Part shown: positions 23,238 through 36,076 of the stretch, piece by piece
Position numbering within the stretch: the first letter of the stretch is position 1
Layout: every line of letters begins with the position of its first letter
NCBI GenBank assembly: GCA_002839095.1
Contig: PGXL01000001.1
Coordinates: 1-64,000, forward strand
From: Tenericutes bacterium HGW-Tenericutes-2
Lineage (GTDB): Bacteria > Bacillota_I > Bacilli_A > Acholeplasmatales > Acholeplasmataceae
DNA length: 64,000 nucleotides
Reading direction: 5' to 3'
The notes under the pieces: model-generated
Seen by the model: only the letters and a program-made list of their open reading frames with translations
Told to the model about the DNA's origin: nothing
Database searches by the model: none
Translations under genes and position numbers: made by a program

Positions 23238-23266
23238 AATAAAAAAAGACGTAATATTACGTCTTT
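23238..23266 (-). terminator. Terminator of folT
   Basis: Inverted repeat AAAGACGTAAT-ATTACGTCTTT (23245-23266) followed by TTTT on the minus strand. The folT stop codon lies inside the repeat. Confidence 0.85.
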
Positions 23267-23790
23267 AGTTTTTCAGGCTGTAAACTGTATTGCTCGTGGA
23301 ACGGGATAAGCTTTCGATAAAGATCCTTAACCAGAACAAAGATAATAATTGAGTTGAATGGGATTAATGCCATTCTAAGAACTAATAAAGCAAGTGTAGT
23401 CTCTCTCCCAAAATGCATAAATAATGCAAATGTATTGGATAGTGAGACTAATACATAAGTAAGTGGAATAACGTAAGCAAGCTTATAGGGTTGATATCTC
23501 TTATGTAGAAATAAACCTGGTACAATTCCCCAAACCATTGGTCCGATTACAAAGAAGGGTAGATATCCTTGACCTGCAATCATTACACCAATTCCATCAC
23601 CAACAAAACCCATGATTGCTCCATAAACTGGACCAAGGATAATGCTGCCTAATACAATAGGTATTGCATAAAATGGTAATCCGAAGTTTGGAATTCCTAT
23701 TGCGTACTTAAAGAATACATCAATTACGATACTAACTGCAGCAAGTGAAGCTGCCAAAACAAGCTTTTGAATCTGTAAATTCCCTTTCAT
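23257..23790 (-). CDS. folT: ECF transporter S component for folate
   Basis: 177 residues, with about six membrane helices and the N-terminal IQKLVLAASLAAVSIVID plus the GDGIGVMIAGQG loop typical of folate-type ECF substrate-binding subunits. It would capture extracellular folate and hand it to a shared EcfAA'T energising module, which is not in this window. The folate specificity rests mainly on the THF riboswitch directly upstream. The start is the ATG at 23790 (MKGNLQIQK). A longer in-frame start at 23823 lies within the riboswitch expression platform and is rejected. GGAGG stands 8 bases upstream. Confidence 0.85.
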   Translation of the reverse strand: MKGNLQIQKLVLAASLAAVSIVIDVFFKYAIGIPNFGLPFYAIPIVLGSIILGPVYGAIMGFVGDGIGVMIAGQGYLPFFVIGPMVWGIVPGLFLHKRYQPYKLAYVIPLTYVLVSLSNTFALFMHFGRETTLALLVLRMALIPFNSIIIFVLVKDLYRKLIPFHEQYSLQPEKLKT

Positions 23791-23791
23791 G

Positions 23792-23817
23792 AAAAAAGAC
23801 CTCCTATTTTTGAGGTC
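23792..23817 (-). promoter_or_regulatory. THF riboswitch expression platform (SD-sequestering/terminator hairpin)
   Basis: GACCTC pairs with GAGGTC over an 8-base loop. The 3' arm contains the ribosome site GGAGG and is followed by TTTTTT and the ATG. The same hairpin could hide the ribosome site or terminate transcription. Confidence 0.75.
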
Positions 23818-23829
23818 CACCATAATTGC

Positions 23830-23922
23830 TTACAGCGGACGCATTAGAAAACCGCCACTTTCGTGTTCGTTCTAATCCGACATCCCATGATTAGACACTT
23901 AACGCTTTCTAATTACTCTGCA
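23830..23922 (-). promoter_or_regulatory. THF (tetrahydrofolate) riboswitch
   Basis: The minus strand holds the class signature: AGAGTA near the 5' end, GCGTTAAGTGTC, GGGATGTCG and, near the 3' end, GCGTCCGCTG, with intervening P2/P3 stems (TTAG with CTAA; CACGAAAGTG). This matches the folT-leader tetrahydrofolate aptamer of Firmicutes. It begins within a few bases of the predicted transcription start and represses folT when folate is plentiful (established for the class). Confidence 0.9.
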
Positions 23923-23991: not shown

Positions 23992-24636
23992 TAGTTCCCA
24001 ATTGATTGGATTGATTTGATGCTTGATTAAGAATTGATTTGTTTTAGAAAAGGGTTTGGATCCAAAAAATCCTCGATGAGCAGACAGTGGAGATGGATGA
24101 ACTGATGTTAGAATTAAATGATTTGGATTATTTAAATAAGCTTTAAATTTAATGGCTTGTGATCCCCAGAGAATAAATACTACTGGAGTATTCTTCAAAT
24201 TAATTTTTTTCACTACTTCTAGAGTAAACTCTTCCCATCCTTTTTTTTGATGGCTCATCGGTTCATGTAAAACAACTGTAAGTACTGTATTGAGCAATAA
24301 CACACCTTGTTTCGCCCAGGACGTAAGATTCCCTGTCGTTGGATACTTGATGGATAGATCATCAACAAGTTCTTTATAAATGTTTTTTAGGCTTGGTGGA
24401 TAGGCTCCTTTTTCGACTGAAAAAGCGAGTCCATGTGCTTGTCCTATATTATGATAGGGATCTTGTCCGATAATAACAACCTTTACTTCATCATAGGGTG
24501 TTAGCCTAAAGCAAGAAAGACGATCATCTTTTGGAGGTAGGATTGTTTTATGTTTGTCCTCTTCCTTAAGAAAATGAACTAATTCTTTGAAGTATGGTTT
24601 ATTTAATTCTTCTTGAATCAAATCATTCCACAACAT
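23989..24636 (-). CDS. ung: Uracil-DNA glycosylase
   Basis: Removes uracil from DNA to start base-excision repair. 215 residues, family 1. The water-activating motif is GQDPYHNIGQAHGLAFSV (catalytic Asp), LLLNTVLTV lies mid-protein, and the C-terminal HPSPLSAHRGFFGSKPF is the His-containing minor-groove loop. The start overlaps the upstream signal-peptidase gene by 8-14 bases, so the two are probably translationally coupled. This is an unexpected partnership, likely read-through of the surface module into a repair gene. Confidence 0.95.
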   Translation of the reverse strand: MLWNDLIQEELNKPYFKELVHFLKEEDKHKTILPPKDDRLSCFRLTPYDEVKVVIIGQDPYHNIGQAHGLAFSVEKGAYPPSLKNIYKELVDDLSIKYPTTGNLTSWAKQGVLLLNTVLTVVLHEPMSHQKKGWEEFTLEVVKKINLKNTPVVFILWGSQAIKFKAYLNNPNHLILTSVHPSPLSAHRGFFGSKPFSKTNQFLIKHQINPINWEL

Positions 24637-25183
24637 CTTGATCTTCCCCTGGTTTTTTCTTGATTAATTTAATAATAACGACAATAATGACAACATTCAA
24701 TACGACTAAGCCTAAGAATATTGGATTTTCAATTAAGATTAAAGCAAAAATAATAACATAGCCAACCCAAGGAATTTTAAATGCTACAACTCCTACAATA
24801 TCTTCATCATATATTGTCCATGGATCTGCGTAATCTCTTCCCTCAGGAACAGTTTCATACGCACGCACACCATCAATGGTTTCAATTGAAAAAATATAAT
24901 GGGTAACTAGCTCTTTTTTTCCATCATTATTTAAATCTACTCTAAAGGTAATTGGGTCACCAATTTCTAATTCATCTAAATTGGCCTTTGTTGAAATAAC
25001 AATATCACCAACATTATAAACAGGTTCCATCGATGGAGTAAGGACTGCAAATCCCTTAAAACCAATGATATCCATTGTTTTATTTGGAGCAATCACCTCA
25101 AGTGCAATAAAGATAAAAAGGATCGAAGTGATTGTATAAAAGATGATATTCAATATTTTTTTCTTTAAGCTTTGATTTTCCAT
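24623..25183 (-). CDS. Signal peptidase I, archaeal/ER (SipW-like) type, copy B
   Basis: 186 residues. An N-terminal helix (about 10-30) is followed by the catalytic Ser51 in LTPSMEPVYNVGD and His95 in VTHYIF, which replaces the Lys of ordinary bacterial type I enzymes. This Ser-His pairing defines the S26B/SipW class. The VGVVAFKIPWVGY region and a C-terminal helix with KKKPGEDQ complete the fold. SipW enzymes process TasA/CalY-type matrix proteins, and three such substrates are encoded 3 kb upstream. The ATG at 25183 is preferred to an in-frame GTG at 25189, which touches the AAGG ribosome site. It is coupled to ung. Confidence 0.85.
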   Translation of the reverse strand: MENQSLKKKILNIIFYTITSILFIFIALEVIAPNKTMDIIGFKGFAVLTPSMEPVYNVGDIVISTKANLDELEIGDPITFRVDLNNDGKKELVTHYIFSIETIDGVRAYETVPEGRDYADPWTIYDEDIVGVVAFKIPWVGYVIIFALILIENPIFLGLVVLNVVIIVVIIKLIKKKPGEDQDVVE

Positions 25184-25207
25184 GTTCACCTTAATAAAAG
25201 AAACCTA

Positions 25208-25843
25208 CTATCTAGAAGGTTTACTTTTTTTGTCTTTTTCGTTAATAAAGAAATAATGCACAAGGCCAAGTATCAATACATGCGTACTAAACATAACCAA
25301 GTAACCTCTTAAATTGGATGATGTGAAGTAAATTACACCAATAAATGATGATTCTCTAACAAATTTATAATCGATATTTTCTATTTGATTTGTATTTCTA
25401 ATAAAACCATCAAATGATGTATCAATTTCACCTAAGTTTTCTCTAATATCAACTATGGTTTCAACCCAATATACTTCTGTTGAAAATCTTCCATAAACAA
25501 TAACTTTATCACCAACTTCAATATCATTGATATCGAAGGGATGTACTGTGATTACTCTTTGATATAGTTCTTCATCAAGTTCTTGAGTATTAGGAATTGC
25601 TATTAGATTTGCATATCCTAATAGATTGATTCCACGATTCGGTAGAACCAAAGGAATTGTAATAAATAGAATGTGTAGAGATGCTAAACCAGTAATAATC
25701 CAAAAGATTGTTTTTTTGTTAAATTTAAATTTCTTTTTTTTAGTTTTTCCTGCACTCTCTAGTTGTCTATTCTCACCAATTTCGCTCATTTTTTGCTTTT
25801 TCAGCAATAGAACAAGCTCCTCAGTTGTCATAAAATCAGTCAA
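25208..25843 (-). CDS. Degenerate signal-peptidase-like membrane protein
   Basis: 211 residues with a Lys-rich cytoplasmic N-terminus (KKKKFKFNKK), one helix (about 50-70), an extracytoplasmic region and a second helix near 185-203. The pattern FDINDIEVGDKVIVYG, then WVETIVDI and SSFIGVIYF, runs parallel to the ELEIGDPITF, VTHYIF and DIVGVVAF blocks of the active peptidases on either side. The SMEP serine segment is replaced (LIAIPNTQELDE), and the His position reads Glu-Thr. It is therefore probably catalytically dead, perhaps a substrate adaptor or regulator. The start is TTG with GGATGTGAT upstream. Confidence 0.6.
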   Translation of the reverse strand: MTDFMTTEELVLLLKKQKMSEIGENRQLESAGKTKKKKFKFNKKTIFWIITGLASLHILFITIPLVLPNRGINLLGYANLIAIPNTQELDEELYQRVITVHPFDINDIEVGDKVIVYGRFSTEVYWVETIVDIRENLGEIDTSFDGFIRNTNQIENIDYKFVRESSFIGVIYFTSSNLRGYLVMFSTHVLILGLVHYFFINEKDKKSKPSR

Positions 25844-25854
25844 GTTATCACATC

Positions 25855-26424
25855 CTATATTTCTGTCGTTTCTACCTTTTCAATTTTTTCTTTCTTGCCT
25901 GATTTCACTAAATAAACGATTGCACCGATAACAATTAAATTTACAGAAACAGCAGCAATTCCAAATGGACTCTTAATAAAATTAACCAATACGCCAAGTT
26001 GACGAATTCTAAATCCATAAACCCCAATAATATCTGAATCTCTTAAGATCCATGTATCTGGTGTAGTACTACCATAACGATTGGTTCTAAATATGCGATC
26101 TCCATCGTTATTTTCAGTAATTGTGTGTATGTAATGTGTAACAGTTTCTTTTGTTCCGTTATAGTCAATATCAGCCTTAAAGGTAATAATATCACCAACC
26201 TCTAATTTGTCAGGGTTAGGATTCCAAACAATAACCATGTCATCAACATCAATGACTGGCTCCATGCTCTCTGTTAGGACAACATAAGGTTTAAATTGAA
26301 AAACCTTGATTGTCATGTCAGGAATAAATAATTCAAGTAATATATAGAGAACTAATAAGCCAGAAAATATAAAAAATGCGATAGTTCCTACTGTTTTAAG
26401 TGTTTTCTTCGTTTCTGTTTTCAC
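25855..26424 (-). CDS. Signal peptidase I, archaeal/ER (SipW-like) type, copy A
   Basis: 189 residues: an N-terminal helix (about 12-33), Ser53 in LTESMEPVIDVDD, His97 in VTHYIHTI, the downstream DSDIIGVYGFRIRQLG block and a C-terminal helix ending in a Lys/Glu tail. It is a class S26B enzyme cleaving signal peptides on the outer face of the membrane. The start is GTG with AGGGGA about 10 bases upstream. It opens the operon S26B-A, pseudo-peptidase, S26B-B, ung, separated by a terminator from the substrate operon. Two diverged catalytic copies may divide labour among the substrates. Confidence 0.87.
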   Translation of the reverse strand: MKTETKKTLKTVGTIAFFIFSGLLVLYILLELFIPDMTIKVFQFKPYVVLTESMEPVIDVDDMVIVWNPNPDKLEVGDIITFKADIDYNGTKETVTHYIHTITENNDGDRIFRTNRYGSTTPDTWILRDSDIIGVYGFRIRQLGVLVNFIKSPFGIAAVSVNLIVIGAIVYLVKSGKKEKIEKVETTEI

Positions 26425-26479
26425 TATACCAATCCCCTCGAGATAAGTTTTTGAATATCGAAGAAATTATATCACAAAA

Positions 26480-26526
26480 AACAAAAAAAGTTAATAAAAT
26501 CCTGAATAATTAAGGCTATTAACTTT
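26480..26526 (-). terminator. Terminator of the surface-protein operon
   Basis: AAAGTTAATA (26517-26526 on the complement) pairs with TATTAACTTT (26487-26496), reinforced by CCT/AGG, and is followed by TTTTT. It overlaps the stop codon of the repeat protein. A -10 TATAAT for the peptidase operon lies just beyond, near 26467-26472. Confidence 0.8.
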
Positions 26527-28096
26527 AATTGTTAGAATATGGTGCCCAATAGGATTCAGAACCAGTTTCACCCGGAGTGATATTGGTTGAAGTTTGAAGT
26601 GCTATGTAAGCAACATTTTCGTAAATCGCGATATTATTTTGTATATATGTGTTATAGCTTTGATAATATAGAGTTCCAATTCGATTCCAAGCATTATTTG
26701 CGGTGCCTGGTATAACGTTATTATTCGCGTTATTCGCATTTACGACTTTATAAGCATAATTACCGTAGAATGCATAATCATCAAGTGCATAAACATTATA
26801 TGGTTGCCATTCTGATGTGTTGACCACATTCCATGCATTATATGATGTGCCTGGTTCATTTGCATTCGCATTTGTCAGGTTAACTACTTTGTAAAGTAAA
26901 CCATTATGGAAGATATGATTGCCTGTTTCGTATGTATTATATGGCTGATAAGTATCTGTATCCATACGATTCCATGCGTTGTAGGTTGTTTGTGGTGTGT
27001 TTGCATTTGCATTGGTTAAATTGTATGGTTTATAGATTCCACCATTATGAATGACATGATCAGTAACTACATATGTGTTATATGTTTGATAGTTTGGTGT
27101 ATCAATTCGATTCCAAGCATTATATGAAGTTCCTGGGAAGTTAACTTTCGCATTGGCTGCATTGATTGCTTTATAGATTCCACCATTATATTGTACAACG
27201 TCATTTACTTTATAGTTTGCATTGTAGGAATATGTAGGCATGTTATATACTGCCCATGAGTTGTGAGATGAAGGAATATTTCCTGTTGTATAAAACTTAG
27301 CTTTATAGTAAATACCATTATATATGACAATATCATCTTTATTATAGATGGCATAAGTACTCCATTCAATAGATCCTTTGACTCTCCAAGAAGCATTGGT
27401 TCCTGGTGTGACATTTAAATCATATCCTAATGCAGCATAATATAATGTTCCATTATAAGTCACATGATCATTTTGTGCATAGGTTAAATATGGATTCCAT
27501 TCCATGGAACCAATTTGTTTCCAATGAAGTGATGTTCCTGGTTCATTGGTGTTTAGATTATATCCTACTACTGCTTGATAGATCTTGTTGTTATGAATGA
27601 CATAAGAACCTTGGACATAGGTTTGTCCAGTTGACCATGCAATAGAATACATGTTTTGCCAACCAGCTCCATTTGTTCCTGGGATGCTTGAGTTTGCTAC
27701 ACCGGCATTTAAGACACGGTAAAACATTCCTTCATGAAGTACAACATCATTCGCGTAATATGTATTTGTAGGTACATATTCGTGATAAATCTCATTAAAA
27801 GGTCCGTATGGAGCGGATGATGGTGGTGGTGCAGATGCGTAACCTCCACCAATGATTTGGTAGATTTTACCTTCCCACCATACGTAATTTCCTACTGAGT
27901 AGGTTTCGCCAAGTACGTATTCAGGGATACCTTCGATACCACCGACAGCAATTCCCCATTCTCCAATAGGTACTTCTGCTAGAACAGCATCTTGATCACC
28001 AGTAACACTGGATGACCAATATGCGTATGTGGAAGTGATTGTATATGAAAAGGCTATGACTAATGTCATCGATAATATAAACTTAAATTTTTTCAT
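26525..28096 (-). CDS. Secreted protein with ten carbohydrate-binding-module-like repeats and SipW-type signal
   Basis: 523 residues. The signal region MKKFKFILSMTLVIAFSYTI is followed by TYAYWSSSVTGD, an AYW motif typical of SipW-dependent exported proteins. From about residue 60 to the end run about ten units of roughly 45-50 residues, each with an aromatic-rich core of the type TYxxxDxVxYNGxxYKA followed by a Pro-Gly-Thr loop and W (for example NDHVTYNGTLYYAA, NDVVQYNGGIYKAI, TDHVIHNGGIYKPY). The pattern resembles CBM5/12 chitin-binding-type modules. It probably binds polysaccharide or forms an extracellular layer. No catalytic domain is present. GGAGG lies 11 bases before the ATG. Confidence 0.75.
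   Translation of the reverse strand: MKKFKFILSMTLVIAFSYTITSTYAYWSSSVTGDQDAVLAEVPIGEWGIAVGGIEGIPEYVLGETYSVGNYVWWEGKIYQIIGGGYASAPPPSSAPYGPFNEIYHEYVPTNTYYANDVVLHEGMFYRVLNAGVANSSIPGTNGAGWQNMYSIAWSTGQTYVQGSYVIHNNKIYQAVVGYNLNTNEPGTSLHWKQIGSMEWNPYLTYAQNDHVTYNGTLYYAALGYDLNVTPGTNASWRVKGSIEWSTYAIYNKDDIVIYNGIYYKAKFYTTGNIPSSHNSWAVYNMPTYSYNANYKVNDVVQYNGGIYKAINAANAKVNFPGTSYNAWNRIDTPNYQTYNTYVVTDHVIHNGGIYKPYNLTNANANTPQTTYNAWNRMDTDTYQPYNTYETGNHIFHNGLLYKVVNLTNANANEPGTSYNAWNVVNTSEWQPYNVYALDDYAFYGNYAYKVVNANNANNNVIPGTANNAWNRIGTLYYQSYNTYIQNNIAIYENVAYIALQTSTNITPGETGSESYWAPYSNN
26560..27930 (-). repeat. Ten tandem ~140-bp coding repeats
   Basis: In-frame repeats of about 47 codons inside the surface protein. Recurrent blocks encode TSYNAWN and YNGGIYK. 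Several adjacent units (26800-27200) are very alike at the DNA level, so copy number could change by slippage or recombination. Confidence 0.7.
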
Positions 28097-28119
28097 ATAT
28101 TGAACCACCTCCTTATTTG

Positions 28120-28147
28120 CGATAAAAGCAGCTAAATGTTAGCTGCT
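28120..28147 (-). terminator. Intercistronic hairpin in the surface operon
   Basis: A perfect 9-bp stem, AGCAGCTAA-CAT-TTAGCTGCT, followed by TTTTAT. It sits between the second and third genes and is probably a partial terminator or mRNA-stabilising hairpin setting relative expression. Confidence 0.6.
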
Positions 28148-28172
28148 CGTTGTTTTTATGATGTTTGTTAAA

Positions 28173-28727
28173 TTATGGTACTAATATTTCAGCAACTGTA
28201 AATGTAATGTCAAGTGTTAAGGTTGCATTAGCAACATCTTCATAAATTCCTTGATTAGCTGGTTCTGCATAAAATGTAACAGTTACTTCGAGTTCTAGTG
28301 GAACACCTTCAGTAATAGTATGTGTTAATCCACCTGTAACAACTGCACTAAATAGAGCTGTATATTCTGTTTGTTCAGAAAAACCTGCAACACCACCAAA
28401 TGTTAACGCAGATAATGTTAATGTACTTTGAACCCCATCGGCACCTGCTTGTTCAGCATCCCATTCGACAGTAAAGTTTAATACTACAACATTTGTAGAC
28501 TCTAATGCTACTTGATATCCTGTTGGAACCATTGGAAGTAATGTATTATTATCTTCATTTGTCACCACAAATGTTGTTGTTACATCTTTCCCTTCACCAA
28601 TAACTATTGATCCTCCAACAGTACTTGTTCCGCCTTCAACTGAATTTGCCCAAAACGCATATGTGAACCCCGATGTGATCACTGCTAACATAACTAATAA
28701 ACCGATTACTAAACCTCTTTTGTTCAT
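28173..28727 (-). CDS. Exported protein with SipW-type signal (TasA/CalY-like)
   Basis: 184 residues. MNKRGLVIGLLVMLAVITSG is followed by TYAFWANSVEGG (AFW motif), then a beta-rich, Thr/Val-rich body with no cysteine. It closes with a strand-like repeat (LTLDITFTV). Size and design resemble the TasA/CalY family of biofilm matrix subunits that need SipW for maturation, but sequence identity is too low to assign by eye. GGGAGA precedes the ATG. It is the middle gene of the riboswitch-controlled operon and may be a fibre or surface-layer subunit. Confidence 0.65.
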   Translation of the reverse strand: MNKRGLVIGLLVMLAVITSGFTYAFWANSVEGGTSTVGGSIVIGEGKDVTTTFVVTNEDNNTLLPMVPTGYQVALESTNVVVLNFTVEWDAEQAGADGVQSTLTLSALTFGGVAGFSEQTEYTALFSAVVTGGLTHTITEGVPLELEVTVTFYAEPANQGIYEDVANATLTLDITFTVAEILVP

Positions 28728-28768
28728 TTTAAATCTCCCTTTTTCATTTTTATTTTTTATTTTTTGTT

Positions 28769-29347
28769 TTAATCATTGTTTCTTGGAGTAACACTAAATT
28801 TCACGACAAAGCTAATGTCTTCTCCTTTAATGGTGTTATACGCTAATTCCGCATCATCAACATTAACCAACTCAAGGTCTAAACCTCTTTCAACTGCCTC
28901 TTCATTATCTATGGGCTCTAACAATCTAACTACTATTACAACAGTTATTGTACTGTTGAACAGCTCATACTCGAATGAATCTCCACCGCTTGCTATCCTT
29001 ATATCTACAAGGTGTGCGTATGTATCAGATTCACCAATTTTTACCTCAATTGCTTCTACAATTAAATTCATACTTTGAACGAGCGGTTTATCGATGTAGA
29101 CATCATAACTAAATACGACCTGATCAACTTCTCCTTCAAAATAGACACGACCTTCCGGAACTAATCTTCCTGTGAAGCTGTCGCTTGTTTCCAATACTTT
29201 AAGCTCTGCGTCAACTCCGTCGAAACGAATGACCACATTACCGATACTGGATACATCTTGCCAATATGCAAAGGCTGCTGTAGAAGTGAAGCCAAGTGCA
29301 ATAATTAACATGATGATAATTCCTATCGGTATGTATTTCTTGACCAC
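28769..29347 (-). CDS. Exported protein with SipW-type signal, first gene of c-di-GMP-controlled operon
   Basis: 192 residues from a GTG start (29347). AAAGGAGG lies 10 bases upstream; a longer reading frame to 29416 is rejected because it would start inside the terminator hairpin of the leader. MKKYIPIGIIIMLIIALGFT-type signal residues (after V/MVKKY) are followed by AAFAYWQDVSSIGNV (AYW motif). The body is a beta-rich domain of about 150 residues with no known motif. It is probably processed by the SipW-like peptidases encoded 3 kb downstream and may be a minor subunit or anchor for the 28173 and 26525 products. Confidence 0.65.
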   Translation of the reverse strand: MVKKYIPIGIIIMLIIALGFTSTAAFAYWQDVSSIGNVVIRFDGVDAELKVLETSDSFTGRLVPEGRVYFEGEVDQVVFSYDVYIDKPLVQSMNLIVEAIEVKIGESDTYAHLVDIRIASGGDSFEYELFNSTITVVIVVRLLEPIDNEEAVERGLDLELVNVDDAELAYNTIKGEDISFVVKFSVTPRNND

Positions 29348-29368
29348 GACTCTAATCCCTCCTTTGAT

Positions 29369-29405
29369 TAAATAAAATAAAGCCAGCATGTTTTCACACG
29401 CCGAC
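29369..29405 (-). terminator. Leader-proximal terminator hairpin of the surface operon
   Basis: GTCGGCGTG-TGAAAA-CATGCTGGC, nine consecutive pairs with G-U allowed, followed by TTTATTTTATTTAA and then the ribosome site. It lies between the riboswitch and the first gene. Confidence 0.75.
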
Positions 29406-29414
29406 TCTGATGTC

Positions 29415-29493
29415 ATTTAAAATAAAATGCCATATTGTCAAGCGTAGAATGAGAATCCACAAATTGTAGATTTTCTTCTAAATGACAACTGGC
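29415..29493 (-). terminator. Riboswitch-linked terminator competing with the aptamer
   Basis: GCCAGTTGTCA at the 3' end of the aptamer can pair with TGACAATATGGC (29429-29440), followed by ATTTTATTTTAAA. A smaller internal stem (AATCTAC/GTGGATT) extends it. Because the 5' arm is shared with the aptamer, ligand binding and termination look mutually exclusive, predicting an ON switch. Confidence 0.6.
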
Positions 29494-29560
29494 TACCTTG
29501 TATAGGCCCTATAGCTTTGCGTCCCAGGATTTCTCCAGGTTTGCCTTTAACATTTGTGAC
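29483..29560 (-). promoter_or_regulatory. Cyclic-di-GMP-I (GEMM) riboswitch
   Basis: Minus-strand signature in order: GGCAAACC (29538-29545), a stem CCTGGA-GAAA-TCCTGG with a GNRA tetraloop, GGGACGCAAAGC (29514-29525), then GGGCCTA and GGTAGCC (29491-29510). These are the conserved elements of the c-di-GMP-I aptamer, including the tetraloop. It is located just after a consensus promoter and upstream of three exported proteins. c-di-GMP control of adhesins and matrix genes is well established for the class; its presence in a mollicute is unusual. Confidence 0.88.
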
Positions 29561-29589
29561 TGAAAGATGTTATTCACATTTTCCTCTAT

Positions 29590-29618
29590 ATTATATACCA
29601 CACATACGGGTGTGTCAA
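29590..29618 (-). promoter_or_regulatory. Consensus promoter of the surface-protein operon
   Basis: Perfect TTGACA (29613-29618), 17 bases and perfect TATAAT (29590-29595). The spacer holds an inverted repeat (CACAC-CCGTA-TGTGTG type) that could be an operator. The predicted leader is about 235 bases. Confidence 0.9.
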
Positions 29619-29675
29619 CAACAATGCTATAAATATGTTGAATTTGTTTCATTTTTTTACATTTTACTTACATTC

Positions 29676-35866: not shown

Positions 35867-35872
35867 GAATGT

Positions 35873-36076
35873 GCAATGAAAAGAAATAGTAGCATGATTA
35901 AAAAATGTCAAGAGAGCTGGGATGGTGGAATCCAGTCATTGGATATCATGTGAATGGGATCTTGGAGCACATAGTAAATCGGCTATAACGATATCGAGGG
36001 CTAGAGTTTTCACTCTAGAACTAAGGTGGCACCGCGTAACATTTACGTCCTTAGATTTATATATCTAGGGACGTTT
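35873..36076 (+). promoter_or_regulatory. T-box riboswitch (Trp) upstream of trpS
   Basis: The T-box sequence AAGGTGGCACCGCG sits at about 36022-36037, preceded by an AGAGAG element and Stem I. A TGG followed by A at 35963-35965 is the likely Trp specifier. The terminator ACGTCCTTAG/CTAGGGACGT plus T-run ends at 36076. Uncharged tRNA-Trp is expected to stabilise the antiterminator and turn trpS on. Confidence 0.93.

Follow-up and report, generated by a model that had tools for sequence, protein, structure and literature searches.

Conserved association of c-di-GMP-I-class riboswitches with SipW-type signal peptidases and exported aromatic-junction proteins in free-living Mollicutes

Introduction

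The tapA-sipW-tasA operon of Bacillus subtilis and the sipW-tasA-calY operon of Bacillus cereus are matrix operons, and in the Bacillus cereus group a triple-tandem riboswitch of the cyclic di-GMP I (c-di-GMP-I) class precedes a collagen-adhesion gene. Here, we describe a locus of Tenericutes bacterium HGW-Tenericutes-2 that holds an aptamer of the c-di-GMP-I class together with genes for SipW-type signal peptidases. It lies on the minus strand of the window, that is, the whole stretch of 64,000 nucleotides analyzed (contig PGXL01000001.1, positions 1 to 64,000). The original prediction, made from the sequence alone, had read the locus as a self-contained matrix or adhesin system that is switched by c-di-GMP in a wall-less bacterium.

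SipW has TapA and TasA as its substrates (PMC7395162). In the Mollicutes literature that we found, cyclic di-AMP (c-di-AMP) is treated as the main cyclic dinucleotide. A search of the open-access literature on SipW or TasA with c-di-GMP riboswitches, and on c-di-GMP in Mollicutes or Izemoplasma, returned no prior report of this system, and c-di-GMP goes unmentioned in the papers on free-living wall-less lineages covered by that search. Taken as a whole, the best explanation of the data below, and one that we regard as rather probable, is that the window locus is one operon of a c-di-GMP-I-class riboswitch regulon in free-living Mollicutes, a conserved regulon of wall-less bacteria that is larger than first described and apparently unpublished.

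Results

The leader of the locus carries a sigma-70-type promoter and an aptamer, followed on the same strand by three genes for exported proteins with an aromatic junction motif at the end of a hydrophobic helix (P1–P3) and three genes of the SipW family (P4–P6; Table 1). The promoter, which had been called perfect, matches the consensus at 12/12 positions (TTGACA-17-TATAAT) and is kept upstream of the aptamer in sister species. The predicted c-di-GMP-I aptamer passed the covariance check, with a match to the full Rfam model RF01051 (1–87) at 63.3 bits and E = 4.8e-10, against a gathering score of 35; the pocket residues G20 (within the GGCAAA block) and A47 (within GACGCAAA) are both present.

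Searches with P1 found the same locus in contigs of metagenome-assembled genomes of Acholeplasmataceae and in Peloplasma aerotolerans M4Ah, and the order aptamer-P1-P2-(P3)-SipW-P5-SipW is kept in 15 sister species, as far as their contigs allow. Among 14 more distant named contigs, 13 have an aptamer upstream of the P1 homologue, including those of Izimaplasma HR2, zrk2, and zrk7, and the fourteenth extends only ∼125 bases upstream of its P1 homologue. RF01051 riboswitches are found in the genomes of 41 of 61 relatives and in all 20 members of the genus, with 2 to 7 in each of the latter. Of the 117 SipW-family genes in these 41 genomes, 77 have a same-strand riboswitch no more than 10 kb away and 0 have an opposite-strand one at that range, for a rough chance expectation of ∼3%; most of the other SipW-family genes are on contigs without a riboswitch.

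In this genome (2.30 Mb in 52 contigs, 99.9% complete), there are seven RF01051 matches. Five riboswitch places have a readable downstream gene (the window, two on contig C38, and one each on C31 and C40); all five precede exported proteins, and four of them precede proteins with the aromatic junction motif. On C38, a tandem aptamer pair is followed by a 240-residue protein (helix end TFYG), a TYAWL protein, a TFAWF protein, a SipW-type peptidase, an AAA_5 ATPase, a DUF2357 protein, and a second SipW-type peptidase, after which a third aptamer precedes VYAWF and FTYAWF proteins. The C31 aptamer stands before a TYAFW protein and the C40 aptamer before an exported protein with an SWGWF segment. 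When the first downstream gene was scored automatically in 65 leaders with at least 700 bases downstream, a set with some bias, as part of the loci had been collected on account of their SipW genes, the motif was present in 39, and the rest mostly have the 240-residue TFYG protein of the second locus type, as on C38.

The aptamer on contig C10 (L034:263-342) runs into the contig end, where a surface protein gene rich in repeats may have caused the break. The AAA_5 ATPase, which has an N-terminal membrane segment, and the DUF2357 coiled-coil protein lie between the two SipW-type genes of the C38 riboswitch operon (L032:10662-14099) and occupy the same positions in L115, L116, and L117; the two are reminiscent of McrBC/CoCoNuT-like systems and are puzzling in a secretion locus. 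In the related genus G033, four tandem c-di-GMP-I aptamers precede a single operon (L117:2425-2876).

Table 1. Elements of the riboswitch and peptidase locus, in window coordinates
Feature	Position	Strand	Basis or detail
Sigma-70-type promoter, TTGACA-17-TATAAT	29618-29590	minus	12/12 consensus matches
c-di-GMP-I (GEMM-I) riboswitch aptamer, G20, U92	29555-29481	minus	Rfam RF01051
Terminator 1	29493-29419	minus	5' arm GCCAGTTGTCA (29493-29483), 3' arm TTGACAATATGGC (29441-29429), then ATTTTATTTT
Terminator 2, between terminator 1 and ribosome-binding site	29408-29369	minus	13 pairs, T-run
P1, exported, AFA/YW junction, TasA-fibre-like predicted fold	28769-29347	minus	motif and structure model
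P2, exported, TYA/FW junction, TasA-like beta sandwich suggested	28173-28727	minus	motif and structure model
Intrinsic terminator after P2	28147-28127	minus	hairpin, AGCAGCTAACATTTAGCTGCT and TTTATC
P3, exported, TYA/YW junction, at least seven CBM5/12 repeats	26525-28096	minus	Pfam PF02839
Promoter before SipW1 (P4), TTAACT-17-TATAAT with TG	26494-26466	minus	conserved in most sister species
P4, SipW-type signal peptidase 1 (Ser53-Met54, His97)	25855-26424	minus	TIGR02228, 63.3 bits
P5, SipW paralogue, degenerate, catalytic Ser and His missing, kept in genus	25208-25843	minus	hhalign and alignment
P6, SipW-type signal peptidase 2	24623-25183	minus	TIGR02228, 67.8 bits

The hydrophobic helices end in AAFA/YW in P1, FTYA/FW in P2, and STYA/YW in P3, so that the expectation of three exported products with an aromatic motif after the signal helix (AYW, AFW, and AYW, respectively) was borne out. 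A strict junction motif after a charge-free hydrophobic stretch is found in 3/3 of these proteins and in 0/120 background open reading frames of at least 100 residues in this genome, drawn from the remainder of the window, the following 6 kb, and 20 GGDEF loci, which argues that the motif is not a product of chance. Together with the covariance score and the recurrence of the locus in 15 sister species and of aptamer and P1 in 13 distant contigs, this background count rules out a chance motif or an annotation artefact in which the aptamer would be spurious and the membrane proteins unrelated. The likely true start of P1 is the GTG at 29347, preceded by the ribosome-binding site AAAGGAGGG, upstream of which a longer reading frame begins. 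Against the model of the SipW-dependent signal, TIGR04088, P1 and P3 score 13.6 and 10.1, below the cut-off of 19; nine of 16 P1 orthologues match it below E 1, the best at 0.006.

P1 and P2 match no Pfam family, and no member of the TasA/CalY family PF12389 turned up in this genome or in 20 relatives, in a search that did match the control Bacillus subtilis; membership in TasA/CalY by sequence was rejected on this result and on profile comparison with the Protein Data Bank (PDB). P3 matches the carbohydrate-binding module (CBM) family PF02839 (CBM5/12) in seven stretches with 85 bits, for a cut-off of 26.2, and E = 3.5e-24; in sister species, it is full-length, ∼95 residues long, or absent. 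At the level of structure, a Foldseek search of 350,000 chains ranked the TasA fibre 8aur second for P1 (E = 1.2e-3), behind the donor-strand pilin CfaB, and TasA 5of2 fourth for P2. A second aligner gave Z = 6.3 for P1 and 8aur (4.0 Å over 125 residues) and Z = 6.3 for P2 and 5of2 (4.1 Å over 122 residues), from models with a mean predicted local distance difference test score (pLDDT) of 68 for P1 and 73 for P2. These matches hint that P1 and P2, two different proteins, share a TasA-type fold, which is suggested rather than proven. The matrix or adhesin role is not supported in the form first proposed, as it draws on the weak TasA-like fold match and the CBM repeats, with P1 and P3 below the TIGR04088 cut-off and PF12389 absent.

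Of the three SipW-family peptidase genes predicted, P4 and P6 stand: both pass TIGR02228 (curated cut-off 51.85) with Ser-Met and His, and S53, M54, D62, D78, and H97 are invariant in the P4/P6 alignment (n = 13), with His in place of Lys. They reach 46.5 and 50.6 bits with the Bacillus SipW equivalog NF046067, where 190 is required, and by their sequences are best described as SipW-like enzymes and not Bacillus SipW itself. P5 is degenerate. It matches no family directly, TIGR02228 included, and is homologous to P4/P6 by profile comparison (hhalign probability 97.1%, 156 columns); the catalytic Ser and His are missing in every species aligned, and P5 was rejected as an active peptidase for that reason. 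Its retention, with 36 to 85% identity across species, marks it as an inactive paralogue that is maintained, not a gene in decay, and it may bind substrates or have a regulatory function. Elsewhere in the genome, an ordinary signal peptidase I is encoded as well (C31:122131-122781, 89 bits), and the SipW-type enzymes are therefore additional and plausibly dedicated, as had been proposed. In one sister species (G017, L112:4015-4581), the first SipW-type peptidase has DTM for SM and Tyr for His and looks inactive. The gene next after P6 encodes a uracil-DNA glycosylase.

Nearly all sister species have a terminator hairpin at the same place after P2, with different stem sequences, and the promoter before SipW1 recurs in most of them as TTAACT or TTAACA-17-TATAAT with TG, or as a TACACA variant, with 10 or 11 of 12 matches. 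Because of this conserved terminator and promoter, the riboswitch likely controls mainly P1 and P2, and P3 by read-through, with the peptidases as a separate unit. What survives of the self-contained switched system is thus the association of riboswitch, SipW, and aromatic-junction proteins across the family; that they form one switched unit is improbable.

The 5' arm of terminator 1, GCCAGTTGTCA, is the aptamer's own 3' strand, and its complement, TTGACAATATGGC, lies ∼40 to 55 bases downstream, followed by ATTTTATTTT. The duplex in the window has an energy of −14.4 kcal/mol (p = 0.007 versus shuffles) and is contained in the unconstrained minimum-energy fold of the leader; calculated up to terminator 1, the terminator form is 9.3 kcal/mol more stable than the aptamer-constrained fold, a difference that would need to be made up by ligand and by the order of folding during transcription. 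A terminator made from the aptamer 3' strand is found in 43/68 leaders (p ≤ 0.05), the sequences having changed and the pairing having been kept, and the terminator 1 pairing is significant in 11/15 window-type leaders. Because the aptamer 3' strand doubles as the terminator 5' arm, we predict that the leader works as an ON switch, with terminator 1 forming when ligand is absent. The pilM riboswitch, an ON switch studied by experiment, uses the same device: its terminator ties up the base that pairs with the ligand (PMC9262584). Terminator 2 is present in 12/15 leaders, and pairing is possible between its 5' arm and the terminator 1 3' arm (133/5000 permutations were equally good, relatedness not being removed); pairing with the released 3' arm of terminator 1 would give a double lock, an idea for which these data are only suggestive.

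Positions in the ligand pocket were assigned in Vc2 numbering from the published sequence. Position 20 is G in 88/88 distinct aptamers of the family, and a cyclic GMP-AMP (cGAMP) riboswitch identified by A20 was rejected on this count. At position 92, the window aptamer has U, as do 60/88 family aptamers, with C in the other 28/88; this genome has four aptamers with U92 and three with C92, one of the latter at C38:164846, and C92 is found in 10/10 aptamers examined as an outgroup from other families of the class. Position 92 was placed via the P1 helix of the RNA, which, where visible, starts one base later in both the U92 and the C92 groups. C92 is the ligand-pairing base of Vc2; it is the specificity residue, and the Rfam threshold can be passed without it. 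Its equivalents are C87 of Cd1 and C75 of pilM (PMC9262584). The Vc2 G20A/C92U double mutant is reported to bind c-di-AMP (PMC7288161), with far weaker binding of c-di-GMP (PMC9049102); crystal structures of the C92U single mutant exist (3MUR and others; PMC10671752), and position 92 is described as less conserved within the class (PMC9049102).

Hypr-type cGAMP cyclases were not seen among the 20 GGDEF domains inspected, which have Asp (19) or Asn (1) at the diagnostic position. Since cGAMP-making Hypr enzymes have Ser there, no source of cGAMP is evident. With the GGDEF and EAL content of the genome in its favor, c-di-GMP is the most likely ligand of the window aptamer, and lower affinity or another dinucleotide is possible; because position 92 is U, the ligand is less certain than the family name implies.

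The nearest cultured relative of the host is Peloplasma aerotolerans (class Mollicutes), which forms cell-wall-less cocci (PMC11122141), and the penicillin-binding transpeptidase domain PF00905 was not found in this genome, in 19 other genus members, or in five other family members. As judged from gene content and kinship, then, the host is a wall-less mollicute, as the original prediction held. The check for diguanylate cyclases returned 28 GGDEF and 8 EAL matches in the genome, and GGDEF is present in 58/61 relatives. Elsewhere in the window, a tetrahydrofolate riboswitch (23831-23922, minus strand, 72.2 bits) precedes a small membrane-protein gene (23257-23823) that looks like an energy-coupling factor (ECF)-type transporter component, and a T-box leader is found at 35867-36055 (plus strand, 115.8 bits).

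Discussion

The aptamer, the terminators, the junction motif, the peptidase families, their conservation, and their genome-wide association are results of computation, from which we infer the ON direction, the identity of the ligand, the cleavage site, fibre formation, and an adhesive role. In the mechanism that we propose, and consider fairly probable as a whole, the aptamer 3' strand would pair with its downstream complement when the second messenger is low, forming an intrinsic terminator at which transcription halts in the leader. At high levels of the messenger, the ligand would keep the 3' strand in the aptamer, no terminator would form, and P1 and P2 would be made, with the CBM-repeat protein P3 made through some read-through. 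The SipW-type peptidases encoded next to P1–P3, which are under their own promoter and probably always present, would cut the signal helices at the AxA/aromatic-aromatic junction; the freed aromatic N terminus is probably donated as a strand when fibres assemble, as in TasA, and the outcome would be a fibrous, polysaccharide-binding coat on a wall-less cell.

Several results weigh against this picture. The profiles of P1 and P2 have no substantial sequence match to TasA, CalY, or any PDB structure, their structure models are mediocre, as the pLDDT values indicate, and Z scores near 6 can reflect a common beta-sandwich. The terminator 1 pairing is not significant in three of the 15 window-type leaders (L104, L107, and L113) and is marginal in L103. 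Terminator 2 is folded in both states in the energy model, which makes a second switching step uncertain. The window aptamer and most of its family have U at position 92. Finally, Peloplasma aerotolerans is described as small non-motile cocci, and GGDEF, c-di-GMP, biofilm, and adhesion are unmentioned in its description (PMC11122141).

These points bear differently on the alternatives. The exported proteins may be single adhesins, carbohydrate-capture proteins, or an S-layer-like (surface-layer-like) coat, released or held at the membrane, and not fibres; the weak TasA match would agree with this, as would P3, which consists mainly of CBM5/12 repeats typical of chitin or cellulose binding, and the weak GLUG-like repeats in another member of the regulon. 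We nonetheless judge it somewhat unlikely, in that P1 and P2 are small, beta-rich, and kept as a pair, with TasA and donor-strand pilins among their first structural matches. The block might also be one self-contained operon, with substrates and peptidases both under the riboswitch: all the genes are on one strand in one block and are conserved together in the genus, the second locus type, on C38, has no clear terminator-plus-promoter before its first SipW gene, and in Clostridium perfringens the terminator after bsaA is read through (PMC7395162). However, hairpins that keep their position after P2 while differing in sequence in nearly all sister species, and the SipW1 promoter with TG in most of them, make such an operon unlikely for the window.

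A further alternative concerns the messenger itself. The U92 aptamers could have a different cyclic dinucleotide as their ligand, for example 3',3'-cGAMP with its A opposite U92, or their affinity for c-di-GMP could be much lower, in which case two pocket types in one genome would imply different ligands or thresholds. The split of the family into U92 and C92 pockets with G20 in all, the occurrence of both types in this genome, the uniform C92 of the outgroup, and the altered binding of the Vc2 G20A/C92U mutant (PMC7288161, PMC9049102) all point in this direction. Yet Vc2 with C92U has been crystallized (3MUR and others; PMC10671752), the position is less conserved in the class (PMC9049102), and the inspected GGDEF domains, with no Ser at the Hypr position, offer no evident source of cGAMP; we regard this alternative as improbable. 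The reading that we prefer remains a c-di-GMP-responsive ON switch for P1 and P2, served by a separately expressed set of SipW-type peptidases.

The components of the locus are of known kinds, and the novelty lies in how they are combined, in the host, and in the U92 pockets. A second messenger seems to set the time at which even wall-less cells make an outer protein coat, and a riboswitch regulon alongside 28 GGDEF domains in a wall-less cell would show that a decision of the sessile/planktonic type survived, or was rebuilt, after the loss of the wall. More speculatively, and in our view improbably, free-living Mollicutes may replace the wall with a fibrous coat made under second-messenger control, with U92 and C92 ON switches answering different cyclic dinucleotides or c-di-GMP thresholds, so that separate sets of surface fibres are made in order. 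The cultured Peloplasma aerotolerans M4Ah and the complete genomes zrk2 and zrk7 provide strains for work on such a decision. The natural U92 aptamers offer an evolutionary case, open to testing, of what had been a specificity mutant made in the laboratory.

Set beside the systems with which we began, the window resembles the Bacillus tapA-sipW-tasA and sipW-tasA-calY operons in having an endoplasmic reticulum (ER)/SipW-type peptidase beside exported aromatic-junction substrates, for which a beta-sandwich fold is suggested, and differs from them in its c-di-GMP-I riboswitch before the substrates, its two peptidases and dead paralogue, its lack of PF12389, and its wall-less host. Tandem aptamers before a surface protein gene are common to the Bacillus cereus group and the relatives studied here, which go up to four in G033 and have proteins of the SipW-dependent type downstream. 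The sipW-bsaABCRSD locus of Clostridium perfringens likewise joins SipW to a fibre-forming substrate (fibres being our proposal for the window) and has a terminator after the structural gene with uneven expression, whereas its host is a walled clostridium and its control lies with a two-component system, without a riboswitch (PMC7395162). The Geobacter pilM riboswitch is, like the leader described here, a GEMM-I ON switch (a predicted direction in the window) whose terminator sequesters the aptamer 3' strand with the ligand-pairing base; it senses cGAMP (A20, C92), precedes other genes in another phylum, and, in the part of the report available, is described without a second terminator (PMC9262584). 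Vibrio cholerae Vc2 (3IRW, 3MUR) shares with the window its aptamer class, G20, and A47 (PMC10671752, PMC9049102), and the natural U92 of the window is the counterpart of its laboratory C92U mutant.

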